A stretch of DNA of 23,213 bases from positions 1 to 23,213 of the IMG/VR virus record IMGVR_UViG_3300042691_015007; one strand, written 5' to 3'. Below are positions 11,331 through 21,743 of the stretch, one piece after another. Source of the stretch: a virus. How positions within the stretch are numbered: position 1 is the first letter of the stretch; each line of letters begins with the position of its first letter. The notes beneath the pieces were generated by a model. The model did no database searches. It was not told where the DNA came from and was given only the letters and a program-made list of their open reading frames with translations. The translations under genes were made by a program, and so were the position numbers.

Positions 11331-12941
11331 TCAAGCGGCAAGCTTGATTTGTTTAAACGAAACAGCACCGATGTCAGCGATGTCATTCACTGCCACGGCG
11401 TTGCCGTAGATGCCAGAGACATCGGCCTTGATGCCGACACCAATGGTTGTCACACCCAGCGCGTTGCCGGACTGGATTTGTTGGCGAACCCCACCGGGGT
11501 TGCCGTACCCGTCAGTGATCACGAAGACCAACTTGCGGTGTTCATTGCGCCGTGCCAGCAACTCATGTGAGTAGCGCAGGGCGGTGTAGTCGTTTGTCCC
11601 ACCAGCAGGGCTGACACGCCCGATCAGGGTGTTGCCCTTGCGATGGTTCATGCCGAAGGGCTTGATCTCAAACACGGCAGACCCGAAGGCCACAACCGCA
11701 GTCTTGACCCCAGCCGCATCAAGCGTCTCCAGCAGGGCACGGCACGTTGCAACAGCAGGGCCAATGCGAGGCTTCTTGCCGTGGTCGTTGTCGAACATCG
11801 AACCCGAGATGTCCAGCAAGATCACAACCGCAGAGTCCACACCCTCCACATCGAGGCGGCGTTTAAACACACGGTCGTTACCAGTGGCCACAGATGGCAG
11901 GGCATGGACGTTGACCACACCAGCCTTGCGGTTGCGGCTGAACTCAGTCAGACCCGAGTTGTCGAACAGGCGCTTGACCTCATAGCGAAGCTTTGCAGGG
12001 ATGGGGGCAGTCTCCAGACCATCCCGCTCGGTGTCCCGAAGGCAACCGCTACCCTTTCGGATTTGCTCGGAGGTGTAGTTGCCCATCACCCCACCGCTGG
12101 GCAGTTTGGGCTCGACCTCCCTTGCCTCGACATCAACAGGGGATTGGACGGGCGCATCAGGGGCCGCAGGAGCCTCTTTGCCCTCTTCCGCACCCTTACC
12201 CTTGTCCTCACCCTGATCGGGGCTTGTAGGCCCATCCTGACCATTTGTAGGGCCATCCTTGGGCTTGCCGGGGCGACCATCGGGCTTGTCGTTGGGCTTG
12301 TCGGGCTTCTGACTCTGTTGCTTGATCTGTTCGTAAACCCACAGAGCAATCTTCAAGGTGTCGGTGCTGGACGTTGCGCTTTCGCACTTCACCGCCGCCA
12401 TGTTAAAGATGGCAGTCAGGCGGGGGTTGCAGGGAACCTTGACAGTGGCGTGTTTACGGCAAGCCACTGCGAGGATGTAGGGGTACTGGCGGGGATCGTT
12501 CCAATCCTTGACGGTCGCCAATGCCTCACGGGTCATGGTGTCGATCAACTCACCCAGCAGGGGGCCGATGTTGCCGAGCAGACCAGAGGCAATCCCGGTG
12601 TTCTCGATCCAGCCATCTTCCACGGCGTTGTGCAGGGTGCGGATGTAGTCGTTATCACCTCTTGCATGGAAGTCGGTGTACTTGTGGTGCAACAGTTCAT
12701 GCACCACATAACCCGCATACTTGACCACCAGCGCACGGCTCACCGTGGAGTCATCAGGGATGCCAGCAAGGTACAGGTTGCCATCCGAGTTGATGCCAGC
12801 GGTCTGGACATCATGCCGCCAGTAGACAGACACACGGCGCAGACCCAGAGAGTTGCCCACCTTGTGGGCGAAGGCCTCCAGACCCAGACGGAACTCAAGG
12901 CCACGCACGGAGGGGCGAGAGAGAATGGTTTCGATGTTCAT
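11331..12941 (-). CDS. CobT-like VWA-domain protein with HExxH motif
   Basis: 536 residues from the ATG at 12941 (GAGG upstream). Residues 1-200 form a helical domain with VVHELLHHKYTDFH (HExxH at 81-85) and HNAVEDGWIE (104-113), a zinc-metallopeptidase-like arrangement known in CobT-type VWA proteins. Residues 205-285 are a low-complexity Pro/Gly/Lys/Asp linker. Residues 365-536 are a von Willebrand factor A domain with the MIDAS motif DISGS (377-381), a distal Thr in GGTNDYT (about 449) and ITDG (Asp477). It follows its MoxR partner by 7 bases. Cobalamin synthesis is not implied; the pair probably remodels a protein target. Confidence 0.8.
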   Translation of the reverse strand: MNIETILSRPSVRGLEFRLGLEAFAHKVGNSLGLRRVSVYWRHDVQTAGINSDGNLYLAGIPDDSTVSRALVVKYAGYVVHELLHHKYTDFHARGDNDYIRTLHNAVEDGWIENTGIASGLLGNIGPLLGELIDTMTREALATVKDWNDPRQYPYILAVACRKHATVKVPCNPRLTAIFNMAAVKCESATSSTDTLKIALWVYEQIKQQSQKPDKPNDKPDGRPGKPKDGPTNGQDGPTSPDQGEDKGKGAEEGKEAPAAPDAPVQSPVDVEAREVEPKLPSGGVMGNYTSEQIRKGSGCLRDTERDGLETAPIPAKLRYEVKRLFDNSGLTEFSRNRKAGVVNVHALPSVATGNDRVFKRRLDVEGVDSAVVILLDISGSMFDNDHGKKPRIGPAVATCRALLETLDAAGVKTAVVAFGSAVFEIKPFGMNHRKGNTLIGRVSPAGGTNDYTALRYSHELLARRNEHRKLVFVITDGYGNPGGVRQQIQSGNALGVTTIGVGIKADVSGIYGNAVAVNDIADIGAVSFKQIKLAA

Positions 12942-12948
12942 GTGAACC

Positions 12949-14406
12949 TCACAGGTATTTTTGAATCTCTGTCTCGTTGATGCAAGACAGGTAGATGGCA
13001 GTGAGACCGGGGAGGGACTCAACTGGTTGACGGGCGGCAATGGTGGATGCCCACGCCTTGTCCACGGGCAAGACCCGCAGGGCACGGACAAACGCAATCA
13101 CAGACCGAATGGAGGGGGCATCAATGACCTCGCCTGTCTGCACCTTCTCACGGGCCACACGCACAGCACCAAGGATGTGGGCGGCAAGCTTGATGTCGCA
13201 CCCAGTGTGGCGCACCACAGCGTCCACCTCGGACATGATGGGGAGGTAGTCGAACTGCACCACACGGGCGAAGCGGTCAACCAGAGCGCTGTTCATCTGG
13301 CGTGTGCCAGCGTAGCGGCCCGAGTCATCACCGTTGCCCAGCGTGTTGTCGGCGGCAAAGACCAGCACACCGGGGGCACGGGTCTGGACAGACCCACCGA
13401 AGGACACGGCGCTGTTGGGCTCAAGGAACCCGTTGAGAGGGGCCAGTTCGCCGGGATCAGCGTTGGTCACCTCATCCAACAGGATCACAGTGGAAGGGTG
13501 TGTGAAGGCGGCAAGGAAGTCACCACGCTTGAACACGGTCTGCCCATTCTCAAGACCCACTGCACCGATGTAATCCTCGACAGAGGTGTACTTGTGGAAG
13601 TTGATGCGTTTAAACGCACGGCCTGTCATGGCGGCAAACTGTCGAGCGGTCTCAGACTTGCCAGTGCCCTTTGGCCCACCGAACCAGACGTTCTCGCCCA
13701 AGTCCTGAGACAGGATCAGGTGCTGGAGGATGTCGGCAGTCCAGATGAAGTTGGGATCAACAGCCGGGGCAGAGGGGTCATTCCAGATGTCCACCTTGAG
13801 GGGGTCACCCTTACGATCCAGCACCTCTACACCAAAAAGCTTCAAGCAGGTCACATTGCCCACCACATGAACAGAGGAAAGGTCTGCGACCACAGACTGA
13901 GCACCAGCGGCCTCGACTGCTTTGCGGAAAGGTGCGAAGGCATCAGCGACAACCTTGTTGACGGCCTCTTCTACCTTACGGTCATCAATCTTGGTCTCGC
14001 CAAGCTTCTTGGCAATGTCCCGAATCTCGGTGCGCAGGGTGTCATCATCCTGAATCCGGGCATTGCGGTCATCTGCCAACTCATCGGACAGTTTCTGGTG
14101 AAACCTCTTGACGGCCTCGATGGCCTTGAGGGCGGCGGCCTCTGCACGGTTTGCAACAGACCCCACGGCATCCACGGCGGCGGTGTCTGCGCCTTGAACA
14201 GCAGACACAGCCACAGGGGTGGCGGCTTTGATGTCGGCGAGGGTCAGGCTGTTGGCCCGGACACAACTGACAAGGTAGTCGGCGGCCTTGCTTTTCTGCT
14301 CGGCTGGTGTGCCGGGGAAAGTGCCACCACCCCGCAGGGCGTAAGCACCCAACACCACACCAATGGGAAGCTTCAAGATTTCGATTTTGATTTGCAGGTC
14401 AGTCAT
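12949..14406 (-). CDS. MoxR/CobS-like AAA+ ATPase
   Basis: 485 residues. The first 200 are Ala-rich and coiled-coil-like (for example AEAAALKAIEAVKRFHQKL). The AAA+ domain follows: Walker A GPKGTGKS (244-251), Walker B VILLDE (307-312), sensor 1 AADN (351-354), an arginine finger region ALVDRF (374-379) and a C-terminal helical lid. This is the MoxR group that works with VWA proteins as a chaperone-like remodelling pair. The ATG at 14406 is preceded by GGAGAA and by GTTTAAAC (14418-14425). It is flanked by SprT-like and VWA genes in one operon. Confidence 0.85.
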   Translation of the reverse strand: MTDLQIKIEILKLPIGVVLGAYALRGGGTFPGTPAEQKSKAADYLVSCVRANSLTLADIKAATPVAVSAVQGADTAAVDAVGSVANRAEAAALKAIEAVKRFHQKLSDELADDRNARIQDDDTLRTEIRDIAKKLGETKIDDRKVEEAVNKVVADAFAPFRKAVEAAGAQSVVADLSSVHVVGNVTCLKLFGVEVLDRKGDPLKVDIWNDPSAPAVDPNFIWTADILQHLILSQDLGENVWFGGPKGTGKSETARQFAAMTGRAFKRINFHKYTSVEDYIGAVGLENGQTVFKRGDFLAAFTHPSTVILLDEVTNADPGELAPLNGFLEPNSAVSFGGSVQTRAPGVLVFAADNTLGNGDDSGRYAGTRQMNSALVDRFARVVQFDYLPIMSEVDAVVRHTGCDIKLAAHILGAVRVAREKVQTGEVIDAPSIRSVIAFVRALRVLPVDKAWASTIAARQPVESLPGLTAIYLSCINETEIQKYL

Positions 14407-14419
14407 TGCAGTTCTCCGT

Positions 14420-14998
14420 TTAAACAAGGTTCAGGACATCGCTGTCCACAGGGCAAGAGGGAAGGCCAAGAGCGGCCCATTTGGAAGTCAGGCGCACGGT
14501 GTAGCCACAAGAGGGGCACACAGCCTTGAGCATGCGAGTGGTCTGCACCTTCTTGGTGTTCATGGTCAGGGCGGCGTGAGGGTAAGGGCCGAGCGAGTCC
14601 ACGATTGCCCCGAAGGTGGGGACGAATGAGGCGGCAGGGCCAGTGGCCTTCCAGCCCTTGGGGCCAGCAGAGGGCTCAAGATGCATCTTCTGGGCGATGC
14701 TCTGGAAGTTGACCCCGTGGTTCATGGCCCCGGCAGTCGAGTGGCAGAGTTCATGCACCAACACATCGAACACCCGCAGGGGGTCATCCAGCACAGGGCT
14801 GATCAAGACCTCGAAGGTTGCATCAGCAGAGGCGGTGTCTGCCCAGCACTCACCGATGGCCCCACTGCGTTTGGCGTTGGACGGGAAGCCGCACGAAACA
14901 CGAACGTTCGTTGGCAAGGGTGAGCACACCGCATCAAAGAAGGGGCGCAGTTCAGAGACGGCGGCAGAGAGCCAGTCTTCACGGTTGTTGATTGTCAT
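14420..14998 (-). CDS. SprT-like zinc metalloprotease
   Basis: 192 residues. VLVHELCHSTAG holds HExxH (82-86), with a possible third ligand His94 in AMNHGVNF. The C-terminus has CPSCGYTVRL (Cys161, Cys164) and SCP (Cys182), a zinc-ribbon-like end lacking an obvious fourth Cys. The layout is that of SprT/Spartan-type proteases, which in cells degrade DNA-protein crosslinks. In this phage it could clear proteins from DNA before packaging. Its stop codon TAA lies inside a GTTTAAAC site, and the MoxR gene starts 13 bases later. The HELCH motif and zinc end are seen; the substrate is inference. Confidence 0.75.
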   Translation of the reverse strand: MTINNREDWLSAAVSELRPFFDAVCSPLPTNVRVSCGFPSNAKRSGAIGECWADTASADATFEVLISPVLDDPLRVFDVLVHELCHSTAGAMNHGVNFQSIAQKMHLEPSAGPKGWKATGPAASFVPTFGAIVDSLGPYPHAALTMNTKKVQTTRMLKAVCPSCGYTVRLTSKWAALGLPSCPVDSDVLNLV

Positions 14999-15751: not shown

Positions 15752-15907
15752 AGCGTAGGAATCAGCAACCATCAGACGGGCAACCAAAAGGGTGTCATCT
15801 TTCGACAACAACATGGATGCGAAGGGGTGCTTGCGGTCATAGGCCAGCACTGCGAGGGCGTTGGCATCAGTGGGGTTGGCACGGTATCGGTCAATGAGTT
15901 TTTGCAT
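15749..15907 (-). CDS. hypothetical 52-aa protein
   Basis: The ATG at 15907 follows GGAGACCC. 52 residues (MQKLIDRYRANPTDANALAV then YDRKHPFASMLLSKDDTLLV and ARLMVADSYA), helical, with a repeated 'R..NP....N...L' feel shared with the 93-aa protein (FNKNPSSTNFEVL). They may be diverged paralogs. It is the first gene of the leftward operon after a long structured leader. Confidence 0.55.
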   Translation of the reverse strand: MQKLIDRYRANPTDANALAVLAYDRKHPFASMLLSKDDTLLVARLMVADSYA

Positions 15908-16112
15908 GGGGTCTCCAATCAGTGCAAGATGGCACTGCAATGCCCACAGCATGGGCATCACGTTGGCATCTCATAGGGGATGTTTTATCTACCGTCACGG
16001 TGGACAGGTACAGGGCTTGAACCCTGTCTGACTTGCTCCCGGACTTCCTCCGGGTTTCGCCTCAGACCGACCGTATCGTGGGCCGTTCACATCAGCACTA
16101 TTGCTAGTGCAT
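15908..16112 (-). ncRNA. structured 5' leader of the MoxR-VWA operon
   Basis: If transcription begins near 16112, the leader is about 205 nt with successive hairpins: GCACTA-GCAA-TAGTGC (16095-16110, GNRA-type loop at the very 5' end), CCCGGA-GGAAG-TCCGGG (16038-16054), ACAGGG-TTCAAG-CCCTGT (16010-16027), ACCGT-G-ACGGT (15991-16001) and finally the repeated element. The density of perfect stems suggests a regulatory RNA. It is not a tRNA: the TTCAAG loop has six bases and no acceptor stem is found. Confidence 0.5.
15928..15960 (-). ncRNA. repeated hairpin element, copy 1 (in leader)
   Basis: TGATGCCCA-TGCTG-TGGGCAT followed by TGCAGTGCCATC, in front of the first gene (ATG 15907). It matches copies 2 and 3 in stem type and in the AGTGCNATC tail, but lacks the CAGCC block. 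It is the most diverged of the three. Confidence 0.5.
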
Positions 16113-16118
16113 GGACGA

Positions 16119-16149
16119 ATGATACCACTATCGTGTAAACAGGTGTCAA
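16119..16149 (-). promoter_or_regulatory. promoter for the leftward MoxR-VWA operon
   Basis: On the minus strand a perfect TTGACA (-35, 16144-16149) and TATCAT preceded by TGG (extended -10, 16119-16124), with a somewhat long 19-bp spacer. The spacer contains GTTTACAC (16133-16140 as GTGTAAAC on the plus strand), so a protein binding that motif would block or bend this promoter. Confidence 0.55.
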
Positions 16150-16214
16150 ACAATACCCGAGTGATTTGTGTGGGTACTCCAGATGATGGGGTGATTGCAG
16201 GGGGTCTACAGGGA

Positions 16215-16448
16215 CAGTGCCAGATGCACTGCATCTATATATGTTGGGTGCATTCTGGTGAGTTGGACTAAAAAGTACTAATGTGAAAGTGAGTACTTTC
16301 GTTAAGTATAAGCAAGTACTGATATTCGTTAAAACGATCAGGAAGAGGGGTCAAACGACTTCCTAGGGGGGTAGTGGCGGGTAAGGGTCAAAGTGGCTGG
16401 AAGGGCCGTTTAAATCGATTTTAGAGCCATGTATGTTTATACAGTACT
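16215..16448. repeat. A/T-rich control DNA with palindromes and AGTACT repeats
   Basis: Part of the 739-bp gene-free region (15908-16646). It contains overlapping inverted repeats CAGTGC-CAGAT-GCACTG (16215-16231) and AGATGC-ACT-GCATCT (16222-16236). AGTACT occurs at 16274, 16292, 16315 and 16443, three within 47 bp, and GAAAGT-GAGT-ACTTTC lies at 16285-16300. TTCGTTAA occurs twice nearby. It could serve as an unwinding or protein-binding region beside the DnaA-like boxes; no gene was seen. Confidence 0.45.
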
Positions 16449-16497
16449 AGCTTACTTTGGAGCATTACATTAGCACTGAGGTACACAAAAGAGAGGG

Positions 16498-16592
16498 TGT
16501 GGATAAAGCTGGGGATAAGCTGTGGACAGAGTTATCCACAGTATCCACAGGTGGTTGTGGACAAGTTGACGTTATCCACAGGCTGTGGATAA
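16498..16592. other. cluster of DnaA-box-like sequences, possible replication origin
   Basis: Four exact TTATCCACA boxes (16498-16506 reverse, 16532-16540 forward, 16572-16580 forward, 16584-16592 reverse) and at least three near matches (GTATCCACA at 16541, TGTGGACAG at 16521, TGTGGACAA at 16556) lie within 95 bp. Two boxes form the inverted pair TTATCCACA-GGC-TGTGGATAA. Host DnaA binds this 9-mer. The site sits between divergent operons next to A/T-rich DNA, as in an origin, but origin activity is inferred. Confidence 0.6.
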
Positions 16593-16593
16593 T
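16566..16593 (+). promoter_or_regulatory. rightward promoter overlapping DnaA boxes
   Basis: TTGACG (16566-16571), a 16-bp spacer and GATAAT (16588-16593), each one base from consensus. The inverted DnaA-box pair fills the whole spacer and enters the -10. Transcription would start near 16600, just before GTTTAAAC (16606-16613, within CTGTTTAAACAG), and run into the terminase and portal genes. Binding of DnaA would be expected to block RNA polymerase here. Confidence 0.55.
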
Positions 16594-16646
16594 GCGAACG
16601 AAGCTGTTTAAACAGACAGGCTGGATGAAACCACAGGAGCGAAACC

Positions 16647-17285
16647 ATGAGCGAGACAGGAAGACCCGGAAGGGCCACGAAAGACCAACTGCTGGAGGCG
16701 CTGGAAGCGGCACATCTGCCGGGGGATGAATACATCGATGAAGGCCCGGAACTCAGCGAAGCGGAACGGTTAGCCGCTAAGGCAGAACCTCCAGTAATAA
16801 GGGTAGACGGAAAGCCAAGAGGAACAGAGGAATACAAGAGAGTTCCACCTCTCACGCCATCAGCAATGGAGTTCGCCAAAGGCATGATCGCTGGGAAAAC
16901 CATGCGTCAAGCCTACAGGGATGCATACCCAAACGCCAAGGGATCAGACCAAGTGATCACCAGCGCCGCATACAGACTGAGCAGGGATGAACGCATCCAG
17001 AAGATGCTGAATGAAGCATGGGGCGAGACAGTGGAAGTGCTGGCAGAGGATGTGGCGGCAACGAAACGATATGTGTTGAAGGAGCTGTTGGCACTCAGCA
17101 AGGGAGGCAAGCAGGAAGGCTCCCGGTTGAAAGCACTGGAACTGATGGGCAGAGCGGCTGGAATGTTCCAACAGACCACTGAAGCAGTGGCAGAGAAGCC
17201 CACAGCAGAGCAGTTGCGCAAGGAGCTGTCGGGTCACCTCAAGCTCTTGGACAACGTCAAGCCACTCAAGGCGAAGAAGGCGTAG
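16647..17285 (+). CDS. terS: terminase small subunit
   Basis: 212 residues. Residues 70-115 (TPSAMEFAKGMIAGKTMRQA, YRDAYPNAKGSDQVITSAAY) form the helix-turn-helix type start typical of small terminases, followed by RLSRDERIQKMLNEAW and a helical C-terminal part (about 150-200). The charged N-terminus (1-65) is variable. Small terminase binds the packaging site and loads the large subunit. The large subunit lies 463 bp downstream, separated by an unusual regulator gene. The ribosome site CAGGAG is upstream. The family call rests on pattern and position. Confidence 0.75.
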   Translation: MSETGRPGRATKDQLLEALEAAHLPGDEYIDEGPELSEAERLAAKAEPPVIRVDGKPRGTEEYKRVPPLTPSAMEFAKGMIAGKTMRQAYRDAYPNAKGSDQVITSAAYRLSRDERIQKMLNEAWGETVEVLAEDVAATKRYVLKELLALSKGGKQEGSRLKALELMGRAAGMFQQTTEAVAEKPTAEQLRKELSGHLKLLDNVKPLKAKKA

Positions 17286-17482
17286 AGGGCAACGGTCATC
17301 AGCAGGGGAGCGTGTAAACGGCTGGGATGGCGACCCCACCCACGCCCCACCCCCCAAAATGCGCAGCGACGGCCCCGCTCCCGCTTACGCTCTAATCCAC
17401 TCATCCCATCACATTCCCACACATACCCCCATCAATCGGAAATCCCCACCCCCCGGGGGTATATATATTTTCGGGAATACCC

Positions 17483-17517: not shown

Positions 17518-17751
17518 ATGTTGAATGAAAAGCATCAATTGGTATTGGACTTCATCCGTGCGTATGTGCGTTTACACGGCGTCCCGCCGTCGTATTCCGT
17601 GATTGCTCGGGGGTTGGGATTGAAGAGTAAGTCGAACATCCACCGGGTGATTCACATCCTTCAGGATGAGGGACTGTTGGTGATCAAGCCCCACAAGTTC
17701 AATTCGATCAAGCTTCTAGATAAGACGGTGAAGGGGGTAGCTTCTCTATGA
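17518..17751 (+). CDS. LexA-type winged helix-turn-helix protein without protease domain
   Basis: 77 residues: MLNEKHQLVLDFIRAYVRLH, then GVPPSYSVIARGLGLKSKSN and IHRVIHILQDEGLL. This follows the LexA N-terminal DNA-binding domain closely (start with a short helix, 'G.PPS...IA..LGLKS.S..HR....L...G.L'), but it ends after 77 residues, so the self-cleaving S24 domain is absent. It may be a stand-alone DNA-binding regulator. It sits between terS and terL and its stop overlaps the terL start. LexA-like winged helices read GAAC half-sites in several bacteria, which fits the GAACGTTCG over its promoter, but binding is inference. Confidence 0.7.
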   Translation: MLNEKHQLVLDFIRAYVRLHGVPPSYSVIARGLGLKSKSNIHRVIHILQDEGLLVIKPHKFNSIKLLDKTVKGVASL

Positions 17752-19244
17752 TGACTCGTCAGGAGGTGGAGAAGTACCGTGAGTTGATTCCTCTCGTCGC
17801 AGATGATGAGAGAGCCAAGATCATGATGTTGTTGGAATACGACAGGGTGGAGAAGTGCAGGGAGTCGTTCATTTACTTCGCCTCCCACATGTGGCCCGGG
17901 TTCATTTCCGGGAAACATCACCAGATCATGGCCAACGCTTTTGAGCGTGTTGCAAAAGGTGAGTTGAAGAGGCTCATCATCAACATGCCTCCTCGGCACA
18001 CCAAGTCCGAGTTTGCCTCCTACCTTCTCCCGGCGTGGTTCTTGGGGAAGTACCCCGAGAAGAAGATCATCCAGACTGCTCACACCGCAGAACTGGCTGT
18101 GGGTTTTGGCCGCAAGGTGAGGAACCTCGTATCGTCCGAGACCTTCTCCCGGGCGTTTGACACCAAACTGTCCTCTGACTCAAAGGCCGCAGGTCGCTGG
18201 AACACGGACAAAGGTGGTGACTACTTCGCGATTGGTGTTGGTGGCGCGGTAACAGGTAAGGGCGCTGATCTTTTGATCATTGACGACCCCCATTCGGAGC
18301 AGGAAGCCAAGCAGGGCAACCCCGCAGTCTTTGACAATGTGTATGAGTGGTACACATCCGGCCCTCGGCAGCGTTTACAGCCCGGTGGAGCCATCATCAT
18401 TGTGATGACACGCTGGTCAAAGAGAGATTTGACCGGGCAAATACTGAAAAACTCCGAAAAAGACGGTGTAAATGAGTGGGAAGTCATCGAATTCCCCGCA
18501 ATTTTGCCCTCGGGCAACCCTCTTTGGCCCGGATTTTGGAAGAAAGAGGAGCTCGAGGCCATTAAGGCCGAGATTCCCGTCTCCAAATGGGAAGCGCAGT
18601 ACCAACAGAACCCCACATCCGAGGGAAATGCGATCATCAAGCGTGATCACTGGCGGATTTGGGAGTCGGACGTCGCTCCCGCTTGTGAATACATCATCCA
18701 AAGTTGGGACACGGCCTTCGAGAAGTCCAACCGGTCCGACTATTCGGCTTGCACAACGTGGGGTGTCTTTCAACACCCCAACCAACATGGCGATCTGAAG
18801 CCAAACATCATCTGTCTGGACGCAGTGAAGGCTCGTATGGAGTTCCCTGAGCTCAAACAGAAGGCTCTTGAGATGTACAAAGAGTGGGAGCCGGACACAT
18901 TGATCGTGGAAAAGAAAGCCGCAGGGGCTCCCTTGATCTATGAGCTCAGGCAGATGGGAATTCCGCTTTCAGAGTACACACCGGGCAAAGGAAGCGATAA
19001 GATTGCGCGTGTAAACGCAATCTCGGACCTTTTTGCCTCGGGAGTTGTTTGGTGCCCACAAACAAGATGGGCAGATGAGTTGATGGAAGAGTTGGCGGCA
19101 TTCCCTAACGGGGACCATGACGACCTTGTTGACTCCTCAAGCCAAGCGCTGCTTCGGTTTAGAAGGGGCGGCTTCATCCCAATCGAGTCGGATGAGCCGG
19201 AAGAGCAGCGGTATTTCCGCCGCAAGAGTAACGCCTTCTATTAA
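17748..19244 (+). CDS. terL: terminase large subunit
   Basis: 498 residues. The ATPase domain has the Walker A-like NMPPRHTKSE (79-88), Walker B LLIIDDPHSE (175-184) and VMTRWS (219-224). The nuclease domain has Asp321 in SWDTAFE, Glu388 in LIVEKKAAG and Asp458-Asp459 in GDHDDLVDS. It packages and cuts phage DNA at the portal. Two ATG codons in tandem begin it, overlapping the wHTH stop. Its sole TTA leucine codon lies in the degenerate motif GTTTACAG (about 18374), and GTGTAAAC occurs at 19009-19016. It is followed by the portal gene after 9 bases. Confidence 0.95.
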   Translation: MMTRQEVEKYRELIPLVADDERAKIMMLLEYDRVEKCRESFIYFASHMWPGFISGKHHQIMANAFERVAKGELKRLIINMPPRHTKSEFASYLLPAWFLGKYPEKKIIQTAHTAELAVGFGRKVRNLVSSETFSRAFDTKLSSDSKAAGRWNTDKGGDYFAIGVGGAVTGKGADLLIIDDPHSEQEAKQGNPAVFDNVYEWYTSGPRQRLQPGGAIIIVMTRWSKRDLTGQILKNSEKDGVNEWEVIEFPAILPSGNPLWPGFWKKEELEAIKAEIPVSKWEAQYQQNPTSEGNAIIKRDHWRIWESDVAPACEYIIQSWDTAFEKSNRSDYSACTTWGVFQHPNQHGDLKPNIICLDAVKARMEFPELKQKALEMYKEWEPDTLIVEKKAAGAPLIYELRQMGIPLSEYTPGKGSDKIARVNAISDLFASGVVWCPQTRWADELMEELAAFPNGDHDDLVDSSSQALLRFRRGGFIPIESDEPEEQRYFRRKSNAFY

Positions 19245-19253
19245 GGAATTGAC

Positions 19254-21743
19254 ATGGCAGCATCAGATATGGTCCCCGGCATTGGTGGAGCCCCTTTGGG
19301 CATGCCCCCTCTAAGCATCGACGACATCCAGCAAGACGACACCCCCGCAATCGAGATCATGATCGACAACCCGGATGATGTCGAAATCGGCCTCGACGGC
19401 ATGACCATCGACCTCATGCCCGATGAGGAGACCGCCGAAGATTTTGGTGCCAACCTCGCCGAGTTCATGGACGAGGGAGAGCTGGGCAAGCTGGCCGGAG
19501 ACCTGATCGCTGAGTACGAGAGCGACGTCTCCTCCCGCAAAGAATGGGCAGACATGTATGTGCGAGGACTTGAGGTCCTCGGCATGAAGTATGAAGAACG
19601 CACTGAACCTTGGGAGGGTGCCTGCGGGGTCTACTCCACAGTCCTAACAGAGGCTGCCATCCGGTTCCAGTCCGAGACCATCATCGAGACCTTCCCCGCT
19701 CAAGGCCCCGTCAAGACGCAGATCATTGGCGCAATCGACAAACTCAAAGAAGACGCAGCCGAGCGTGTCCGGGAGGACATGAACTACAAGCTGACCGAGC
19801 AAATGCCCGAGTACCGCCCTGAGCATGAGCGCATGCTCTACAACTTGGGTTTGGCCGGTTCGGCCTTCAAGAAAATCTACTTCGACCCCAGCATGGGCAG
19901 GCAGGTCGCCATCTTCATCCCCGCAGAAGACCTGATCATTCCTTACGGCGCATCCAACGCCCGCACCGCAGAGCGTGTAACCCATGTGATGCGCAAGACA
20001 AAGAATGAGATCAAGAAGCTTCAAGTCGCAGGCTTCTACCGCGATGTTGATCTGGGTGAGCCCCAGATGTTCAACACAGACATTGAGAAGAAAAAAGCCG
20101 AAGAGCAGGGCTACGATTTAAACGAGGACAACCGTTACCAGCTTCTGGAGATGTGCGTTGACTACGATATGCCCGGGTACGAGGATGAGGATGAGATTGC
20201 CCTTCCCTACGTTGTGACCATCGACCGTGCCACCACAAAGGTTCTGTCGATCCGCCGCAACTGGAACGAAGAAGACAAGCTCAAGCTGCGCCGTCAGCAC
20301 TTCGTTCAGTACACCTACATCCCCGGTTTTGGTGTTTATGGTCTGGGCCTAATCCACGTCATCGGTGGCTATGCCCGTGCCGGTACTTCCATCATCCGCC
20401 AACTGGTGGACGCAGGTACTCTGGCTAACCTGCCCGGTGGTGTGAAGACCCGTGGTCTCAGGATCAAGGGAGATGACACCCCAATTGCTCCCGGTGAGTG
20501 GCGCGACGTGGACGTTCCGTCCGGGACCATGCGTGACAACATCATGCCCCTGCCCTACAAAGAGCCCTCACAGGTTCTGGCTGGGTTGCTTGAGCGCATC
20601 ACAGAGGAAGCTCGCCGTCTGGGATCAGTCGCAGACATGAAGATCAGCGACATGGGTGCCAATGCACCCGTGGGTACGACTCTGGCTCTTCTGGAGCGCC
20701 AGCTCAAGACCATGAGCGCGGTTCAGGCTCGGGTCCACAACTCGATGAAGGAGGAGTTCAAGCTCCTCAAAGAGATCATCCGAGACAACACCCCCGCAGA
20801 GTATGACTACATGCCCATGGGTGGTAAGCCTGCCGCCAAGCGGGAGGACTACGACATCGTTGAGGTGATCCCAGTCTCTGATCCAAACAGCGCCACGATG
20901 GCCCAGCGGATCATGCAGTACCAAGCCGTCATTCAGTTGTCGGCTCAAGCCCCTCAGATTTACGACCTGCCGCAGTTGCACCGTCAGATGATTGAGGTGC
21001 TGGGTATCAAGAACGCAGACAAGCTTGTGCCCATCGAAGATGACATGACACCTCGTGACCCAGTGTCGGAGAACATGGCCTTCTTGACGGGAAAGCCCAC
21101 AAAGGCTTTTGTCTACCAAGACCACGATGCCCACATTGCCGTCCATACATCTATGTTGCAAGACCCCTTGCTGATGGCGCAGATTGGTCAGAGCCCTCAA
21201 GCTCAGAAGATGCAGGCCGAGATCATGGCCCACGTATCCGAGCACTTGGCTTTTGCTTACCGCAAGAAGATCGAGGAGCAGTTGGGTGTTCCTCTTCCGG
21301 CTCCCAACACCGAGATGCCGGAAGAGGCAGAGGTCATGCTGGCAAAGATGGTTGCCATGGCCTCTCAGCAGGTGCTGGCTCAGAGCAAGGGTCAGGCTGC
21401 TCAACAGCAGGCCCAACAACAAGCTCAGGACCCCGTCATCCAAATGCAGATGCAGGAGCTCAAGATCAAAGAGCAAGAGGCTCAGATCAAGGGCATGAAG
21501 GTGCGCGGAGACCTCCAACTCAAATCAGAAGAGCTTGGCCTCAAGGCCCGGGAAGCTGCGCAAAAGGTCGGCGAAGACCCAGAACTTGCCTACCAGCGAT
21601 TGCAGACTGAAATCTCTCAGATGCAGGAAGTCCACGCCATGGAGATGGCTGCCAAACAACAGCAGATGATGCTTCAGCAGCAAGAAGCTCAGCAAAAAAT
21701 GGCTCAACAAGCAACGCCCCCAATGGGCGGTAAGGGGCAGTAA
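19254..21743 (+). CDS. P22-type portal protein
   Basis: 829 residues. After an acidic N-terminus the core (about 90-560) has segments typical of large podovirus-like portals: ADMYVRGLEVLGMKYEERTE, PWEGACGVYSTVLTEA, LYNLGLAGSAFKKIYFDP, RHPF-free helical domains, and PVGTTLALLERQLKTMSAVQ near residue 465. The last 150 residues are Gln/Met-rich and coiled-coil (for example QMQMQELKIKEQEAQIKG). The portal forms the dodecameric gate for DNA packaging. The length and sequence fit P22-like rather than HK97-like portals. It ends in a TAATG overlap with the next gene. Confidence 0.85.
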   Translation: MAASDMVPGIGGAPLGMPPLSIDDIQQDDTPAIEIMIDNPDDVEIGLDGMTIDLMPDEETAEDFGANLAEFMDEGELGKLAGDLIAEYESDVSSRKEWADMYVRGLEVLGMKYEERTEPWEGACGVYSTVLTEAAIRFQSETIIETFPAQGPVKTQIIGAIDKLKEDAAERVREDMNYKLTEQMPEYRPEHERMLYNLGLAGSAFKKIYFDPSMGRQVAIFIPAEDLIIPYGASNARTAERVTHVMRKTKNEIKKLQVAGFYRDVDLGEPQMFNTDIEKKKAEEQGYDLNEDNRYQLLEMCVDYDMPGYEDEDEIALPYVVTIDRATTKVLSIRRNWNEEDKLKLRRQHFVQYTYIPGFGVYGLGLIHVIGGYARAGTSIIRQLVDAGTLANLPGGVKTRGLRIKGDDTPIAPGEWRDVDVPSGTMRDNIMPLPYKEPSQVLAGLLERITEEARRLGSVADMKISDMGANAPVGTTLALLERQLKTMSAVQARVHNSMKEEFKLLKEIIRDNTPAEYDYMPMGGKPAAKREDYDIVEVIPVSDPNSATMAQRIMQYQAVIQLSAQAPQIYDLPQLHRQMIEVLGIKNADKLVPIEDDMTPRDPVSENMAFLTGKPTKAFVYQDHDAHIAVHTSMLQDPLLMAQIGQSPQAQKMQAEIMAHVSEHLAFAYRKKIEEQLGVPLPAPNTEMPEEAEVMLAKMVAMASQQVLAQSKGQAAQQQAQQQAQDPVIQMQMQELKIKEQEAQIKGMKVRGDLQLKSEELGLKAREAAQKVGEDPELAYQRLQTEISQMQEVHAMEMAAKQQQMMLQQQEAQQKMAQQATPPMGGKGQ

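Follow-up and report, generated by a model that had tools for sequence, protein, structure and literature searches.

Organization of the terminase locus

The window analyzed here is a fragment of 23,213 nucleotides from the IMG/VR virus record IMGVR_UViG_3300042691_015007, in which a dense array of DnaA-box-like sequences precedes the packaging and head genes (Table 1). Between positions 16498 and 16592, we found seven boxes resembling TTATCCACA with at most one mismatch, four of which are exact, together with an eighth box having two mismatches; the array is ~100 bp long with steps of 9-16 bp and mixed box orientations, and it ends 54 bp before the terS gene. Boxes with at most one mismatch number 10 in the entire 23 kb window against 3.9 expected, and 7 of the 10 are within 95 bp, for which a Poisson estimate gives ~1e-16. 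Furthermore, two of the exact boxes form a perfect inverted pair, TTATCCACA-GGC-TGTGGATAA, which occupies the spacer and the -10 hexamer of a sigma70-type promoter. The initial annotation of this DNA had described four exact boxes with near matches in 95 bp, a perfect inverted pair in the spacer of a promoter, and the reading of that promoter into packaging and head genes. All of these were confirmed, with the right arm of the pair found also over the -10 hexamer and with the genes for TerS, a helix-turn-helix (HTH) protein, TerL and the portal protein located downstream.

Table 1. Features around the terminase promoter and their positions in the window
Feature	Position	Strand	Remarks
100-bp segment with the lowest stability in the window and in the relative G001	16232..16332		Candidate unwinding element
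Leftward promoter-like match, TTAACG-16-TATACT	16305..16332	-	Inside the AT-rich segment
DnaA box, exact TTATCCACA	16498..16506	-	Sequence match
DnaA box variant TTATCCCCA, 1 mismatch	16510..16518	-	Sequence match
Weak box CTGTCCACA, 2 mismatches	16521..16529	-	Spaced 11-12 bp from neighbouring boxes
DnaA box, exact TTATCCACA	16532..16540	+	Sequence match
DnaA box variant GTATCCACA, 1 mismatch	16541..16549	+	Sequence match
DnaA box variant TTGTCCACA, 1 mismatch	16556..16564	-	One base off the -35 hexamer
Sigma70-type promoter of the terminase operon, TTGACG-16-GATAAT	16566..16593	+	-35 at 16566-16571, -10 at 16588-16593
DnaA box, exact TTATCCACA	16572..16580	+	Left arm of the inverted pair, within the promoter spacer
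DnaA box, exact TTATCCACA	16584..16592	-	Right arm of the inverted pair, over the -10 hexamer
LexA-box-like CTGT-N8-ACAG, CTGTTTAAACAGACAG, containing GTTTAAAC	16604..16619	+	11 bp past the -10 hexamer
Terminase small subunit (TerS)	16647..17285	+	phrog_51, 4.4e-08
77-aa LexA DNA-binding-domain (HTH) protein	17518..17751	+	Possible regulator
Terminase large subunit (TerL)	17748..19244	+	
Portal protein	19254..21743	+	

Conservation of the box cluster

The contig G001 (58.4 kb) matches the window at 99.99% identity across 22.8 kb, and all four of its exact boxes fall in the cluster before terS. Also in the other long relatives, the densest box cluster is mostly located before terS, with a few of them carrying one or two exact boxes elsewhere. 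The ends of two long relatives overlap (a repeat of ~4 kb in G006 and an exact match of 123 bp in G008), which is consistent with a circular map.

We then collected 80 relatives by TerL, and dereplication together with a required minimum of 400 bp upstream of terS left 34 of them. Three or more boxes are present in these 400 bp in all of the 34 relatives (mean 5.2), as compared with only 1 of 686 control tiles (mean 0.14); a box cluster conserved beyond chance, which was sought as a mark of an origin, is hence present. The cluster contains 3-9 boxes and is found each time at terS, and the boxes are kept across the same relatives while the identity of TerS falls to as low as 47%. In terms of the box forms, TTATCCACA was found 94 times, TTGTCCACA 24, TTATGCACA 17, GTATCCACA 11, TTATCAACA 6 and TTATTCACA 6 times; the positions 1, 3 and 5 of the box are the most variable, position 4 rarely varies, and positions 2 and 8 are invariant. 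The variants TTGTCCACA, TTATGCACA and TTATTCACA are forms tolerated by DnaA, and TTGTCCACA is indeed a high-affinity DnaA box in Mycobacterium and Streptomyces (PMC4285127).

Position of the cluster relative to the promoter

The DnaA boxes overlap or flank the terS promoter in the window but not in every relative. In layout A, the cluster lies over the promoter (the window, L004, L016, L026, L036, L043 and L068), and the promoter hexamers in L004, L016, L026 and L043 are identical to those in the window. In layout B (L009, L017, L023, L024, L032 and L033), a similar cluster ends at least ~70 bp before a box-free promoter of the type TGGACA-17-TAGCAT, and approximately one third of the relatives have 4-6 boxes at such a distance from a promoter without boxes. 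Both clusters are present in L051, L053, L075 and L080, while layout C has only three boxes, two of which are over the promoter (L057, L058, L074 and L078). L079 retains TTGACA-17-GATAAT, with the boxes only upstream of it. Overlap between the boxes and the promoter was scored automatically in at least 16 of the 34 relatives, a lower bound because the promoter was mis-anchored in L016, L026 and L036, and by eye in ~19; some of these relatives are only ~50% alike in TerS. The promoter and the cluster are thus conserved independently of each other, and promoter occlusion is therefore not the function that the clusters share. We also noticed that GTACT motifs adjoin the clusters of layout B and that three AGTACT repeats are present at 16274-16320 in the AT-rich segment of the window.

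Unstable DNA beside the cluster

In both the window and G001, the 60- and 100-bp segments of lowest stability are ~250 bp to the left of the cluster (to the right in the reversed orientation of G001), and G002 has its 60-bp stability minimum at the same place relative to the cluster. The instability of this segment ranks from first to ~2% across the relatives, namely in the top ~0.3% in G003, G004 and G006 and weaker in G007-G009. Intergenic DNA is usually AT-rich, and the segment, because the leftward promoter-like match sits in it, argues weakly for an unwinding element.

An Rfam scan of the region gave zero matches. Positions 15991-16090 on the plus strand are a candidate for a conserved structured RNA without an Rfam match: 9 of its 21 pairs change on both sides yet stay paired, 98.7% of the cells are paired as compared with 28-42% when the alignment is slid, and the G-U pairs agree with the plus strand.

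Replication genes of the clade and its cultured cousins

The clade encodes a Toprim/DnaB-type primase-helicase, a Sak-like annealase, an exonuclease and RusA. In the eight long relatives, no match was obtained with Bac_DnaA_C (domain IV of DnaA), DNA_pol_A, DNA_pol_B or tyrosine integrase, for all of which the positive controls were detected. None of the large unassigned proteins matched polymerase III alpha, with the polymerase family profiles covering A and B, and the proteins scanned included no match to a phage initiator of the lambda O type. All four cultured cousins, in contrast, have DNA polymerase A at 1e-62 or better and zero exact boxes. This contrast represents one phylogenetic split between clades whose hosts differ, and it fits a clade that would use the polymerase and DnaA of its host. 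Given that the clade has no detectable DNA polymerase and the box-free cousins have one, a role of the cluster in replication is therefore favoured. The phages of the HTVC023P/HTVC027P type and DSL-LC04 are similar to the clade in TerL (49-58% identical) and genome size (57-62 kb) but differ in having DNA polymerase A, no exact TTATCCACA box and an annotated terS apart from terL.

No DNA similarity to 15900-17400 was found in cultured phages. A search for a prophage host gave just two contigs of metagenome-assembled genomes (MAGs), which were binned to different groups (Burkholderiales and Geobacteraceae), and the host is hence uncertain. In the Burkholderiales MAG holding the contig of a relative, dnaA is flanked by exact TTATCCACA boxes. 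Also, positions 11331-14998 on the minus strand of the window encode VWA (CobT-like), MoxR/CobS-like AAA and SprT-like proteins with a G+C content of ~59%, above that of the rest, and the SprT-like gene adjoins the cluster in many relatives as well.

Possible roles of the array

Judging from its sequence, the array is very probably bound by DnaA, and the binder would be that of the host because no DnaA of the phage was found. The host replication switch would then probably start the copying of the phage there, control the packaging genes, or do both. Among the readings, we favour a host-DnaA site that is the replication origin of the phage or belongs to it, to which we assign a probability of about 0.5. 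From the boxes, their conservation, the overlap with the promoter, the AT-rich minimum and the absence of detectable polymerase and DnaA-like domains, we infer a course in which host DnaA would occupy the array and help open the nearby AT-rich DNA; the primase-helicase of the phage would be loaded next, and the DNA polymerase of the host, which is proposed here because that of the phage was not found, would copy the phage. In the sub-group with the last boxes inside the terminase promoter, the same DnaA complex might block or tune transcription of the packaging genes; such control of the promoter, which is suggested by layouts A and C, is compatible with an origin. Several observations do not favour an origin, however: the phage has its own helicase, whose loading by DnaA is a conjecture, the distant sub-group of L057, L074 and L078 has only three boxes with two of them over the promoter, the GC skew has no consistent switch at the cluster, and the AT-rich segment is also promoter-like.

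The initial annotation had proposed an origin using host DnaA, a switch repressing late genes, or titration of DnaA. Binding of DnaA is indirectly supported by the exact boxes, their conservation in 34 of 34 relatives and the tolerated variants, but occlusion of the promoter did not hold as a common function. A switch for packaging alone, in which DnaA on the pair in the -35/-10 region blocks RNA polymerase or activates from the upstream boxes while replication starts elsewhere, appears rather unlikely to us. Such a switch would time the expression of terminase, and it accords with the retained hexamers and with the overlap in about half of the relatives; indeed, DnaA is known to repress dnaA and nrdAB via such boxes (PMC8203912), and, among the matches listed, ~14 of the 22-24 promoter-like sites near box pairs in viral contigs begin 10-29 bp from the pair centre. 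The relatives of layout B are nonetheless difficult to reconcile with this switch, and promoter occlusion is not the sole job of the cluster, because about one third of the relatives keep it ~70 bp from the promoter.

It is improbable that the array is a datA-like sink that soaks up DnaA and stops initiation in the host. High-affinity boxes would multiply with the copy number of the phage, and larger arrays do exist in some unrelated viral contigs (12 boxes in L167 and 19 in L178), but pure titration with 3-9 boxes per cluster has no need of overlap with the promoter, and titration alone is unlikely because the location is fixed at terS. Even less probable is a binding site for a phage protein, namely a cos/pac site of TerS or a site of the LexA-like HTH protein, with an incidental resemblance to DnaA boxes. 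Packaging sites are commonly found beside terS, and the HTH gene is in the operon; the exact 9-mer and its tolerated variants are, however, those of DnaA, the boxes are fixed while TerS diverges, and the pair recurs in at least 108 dereplicated viral places, mostly without detectable relatives of these proteins. A repressor of the phage that recognises this same 9-mer is possible, although none has to be assumed.

Returning to the favoured origin, we may further speculate, with little confidence, on a copy-number timer: DnaA would repress the packaging promoter early, and multiplying genomes with ~seven boxes each would dilute DnaA and open the promoter. If true, packaging would begin only once enough genomes exist, and the site would be both origin and sensor. 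Apart from the timer, the results point to a freshwater-type group of phages that has no detectable polymerase or initiator and apparently depends on the DnaA of its host; in part of the clade, the site is fused to the packaging promoter. The cell-cycle control of the host, the replication of the phage and its early-late switch would thereby be linked.

Comparison with known systems

Like bacterial oriC of the E. coli type, the array has high- and low-affinity TTATCCACA boxes in opposed arrays near AT-rich DNA. The phage array is unlike oriC in being ~100 bp long, in its place 54 bp before terS, in overlapping a promoter and in having the AT-rich segment ~160-270 bp away. The DnaA-regulated promoters of dnaA and nrdAB similarly have boxes at and beside the -35 and -10 hexamers, but the phage promoter serves a packaging operon, and the cluster in sister phages is apart from the promoter. 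Phage lambda encodes its own initiator O, with iterons; no initiator of this kind was found among the proteins scanned, and the clade furthermore differs from lambda in having more boxes and in their location at the terminase genes. Lambda is nonetheless similar in that DnaA boxes adjoin a phage promoter (pO/pR) near replication control (PMC3985674). In the papers found, DnaA boxes of phages are mostly treated incidentally, with lambda as the worked example.

Box pairs in other viral contigs

When viral contigs were scanned for TTATCCACA-N2-4-TGTGGATAA, at least 130 places (at least 108 after dereplication) were found, many of them in phages without a detectable relation to the clade. Among the matches listed, promoter-like sites are near the pair in 21 of 108 places as compared with 68 of 529 control places, a mild excess, and are ~7-fold more frequent per position at 10-29 bp from the pair centre than in the rest of the flanks. 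These results suggest that phages have repeatedly put paired DnaA boxes beside promoters; the use of DnaA by phages may be under-recognised, and a timer is possibly widespread. We also compared TerL groups of unrelated phages for a pair before the gene; 4 of 7 groups had one where 2.0 were expected, which is not significant (p ~0.09), and, in the largest such group outside the clade, the promoter beside the pair points away from terS.

The 19 boxes of L178 (7065-7191) and the 12 of L167 (~872) are each within 320 bp. The pair is present at three places in one 39 kb contig (L133, L142 and L166) and at two in one 60 kb contig (L140 and L165); these repeated pairs have a common flank (e.g., TAGTTCA..AAACTTATCCACA) and resemble a repeated regulatory unit.

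LexA-like element and a dispersed palindrome

The CTGT-N8-ACAG element is present as a single copy in the window and in G001 and is retained in many relatives. The gene of the LexA-type HTH protein shares the operon, and a tblastn search found this protein in 77 of 80 relatives; autoregulation or control by host LexA is possible. The 8-bp palindrome within the element, GTTTAAAC, has 13 sites in the window (e.g., 16606, 15362, 15030 and 14418) and is ~20- to 65-fold enriched in most of the clade, both within and between genes, with observed/expected counts of 21/0.45 in G001, 30/0.45 in G002, 39/0.9 in G006 and 49/1.4 in G008. It might be a dispersed site similar to HIP1 or to stoperators. This palindrome is almost absent in the cultured cousins and unenriched in Burkholderiales genomes, and it is the most over-represented 8-mer in seven of eight genomes of the clade, with GTTTAAAT leading in G007.
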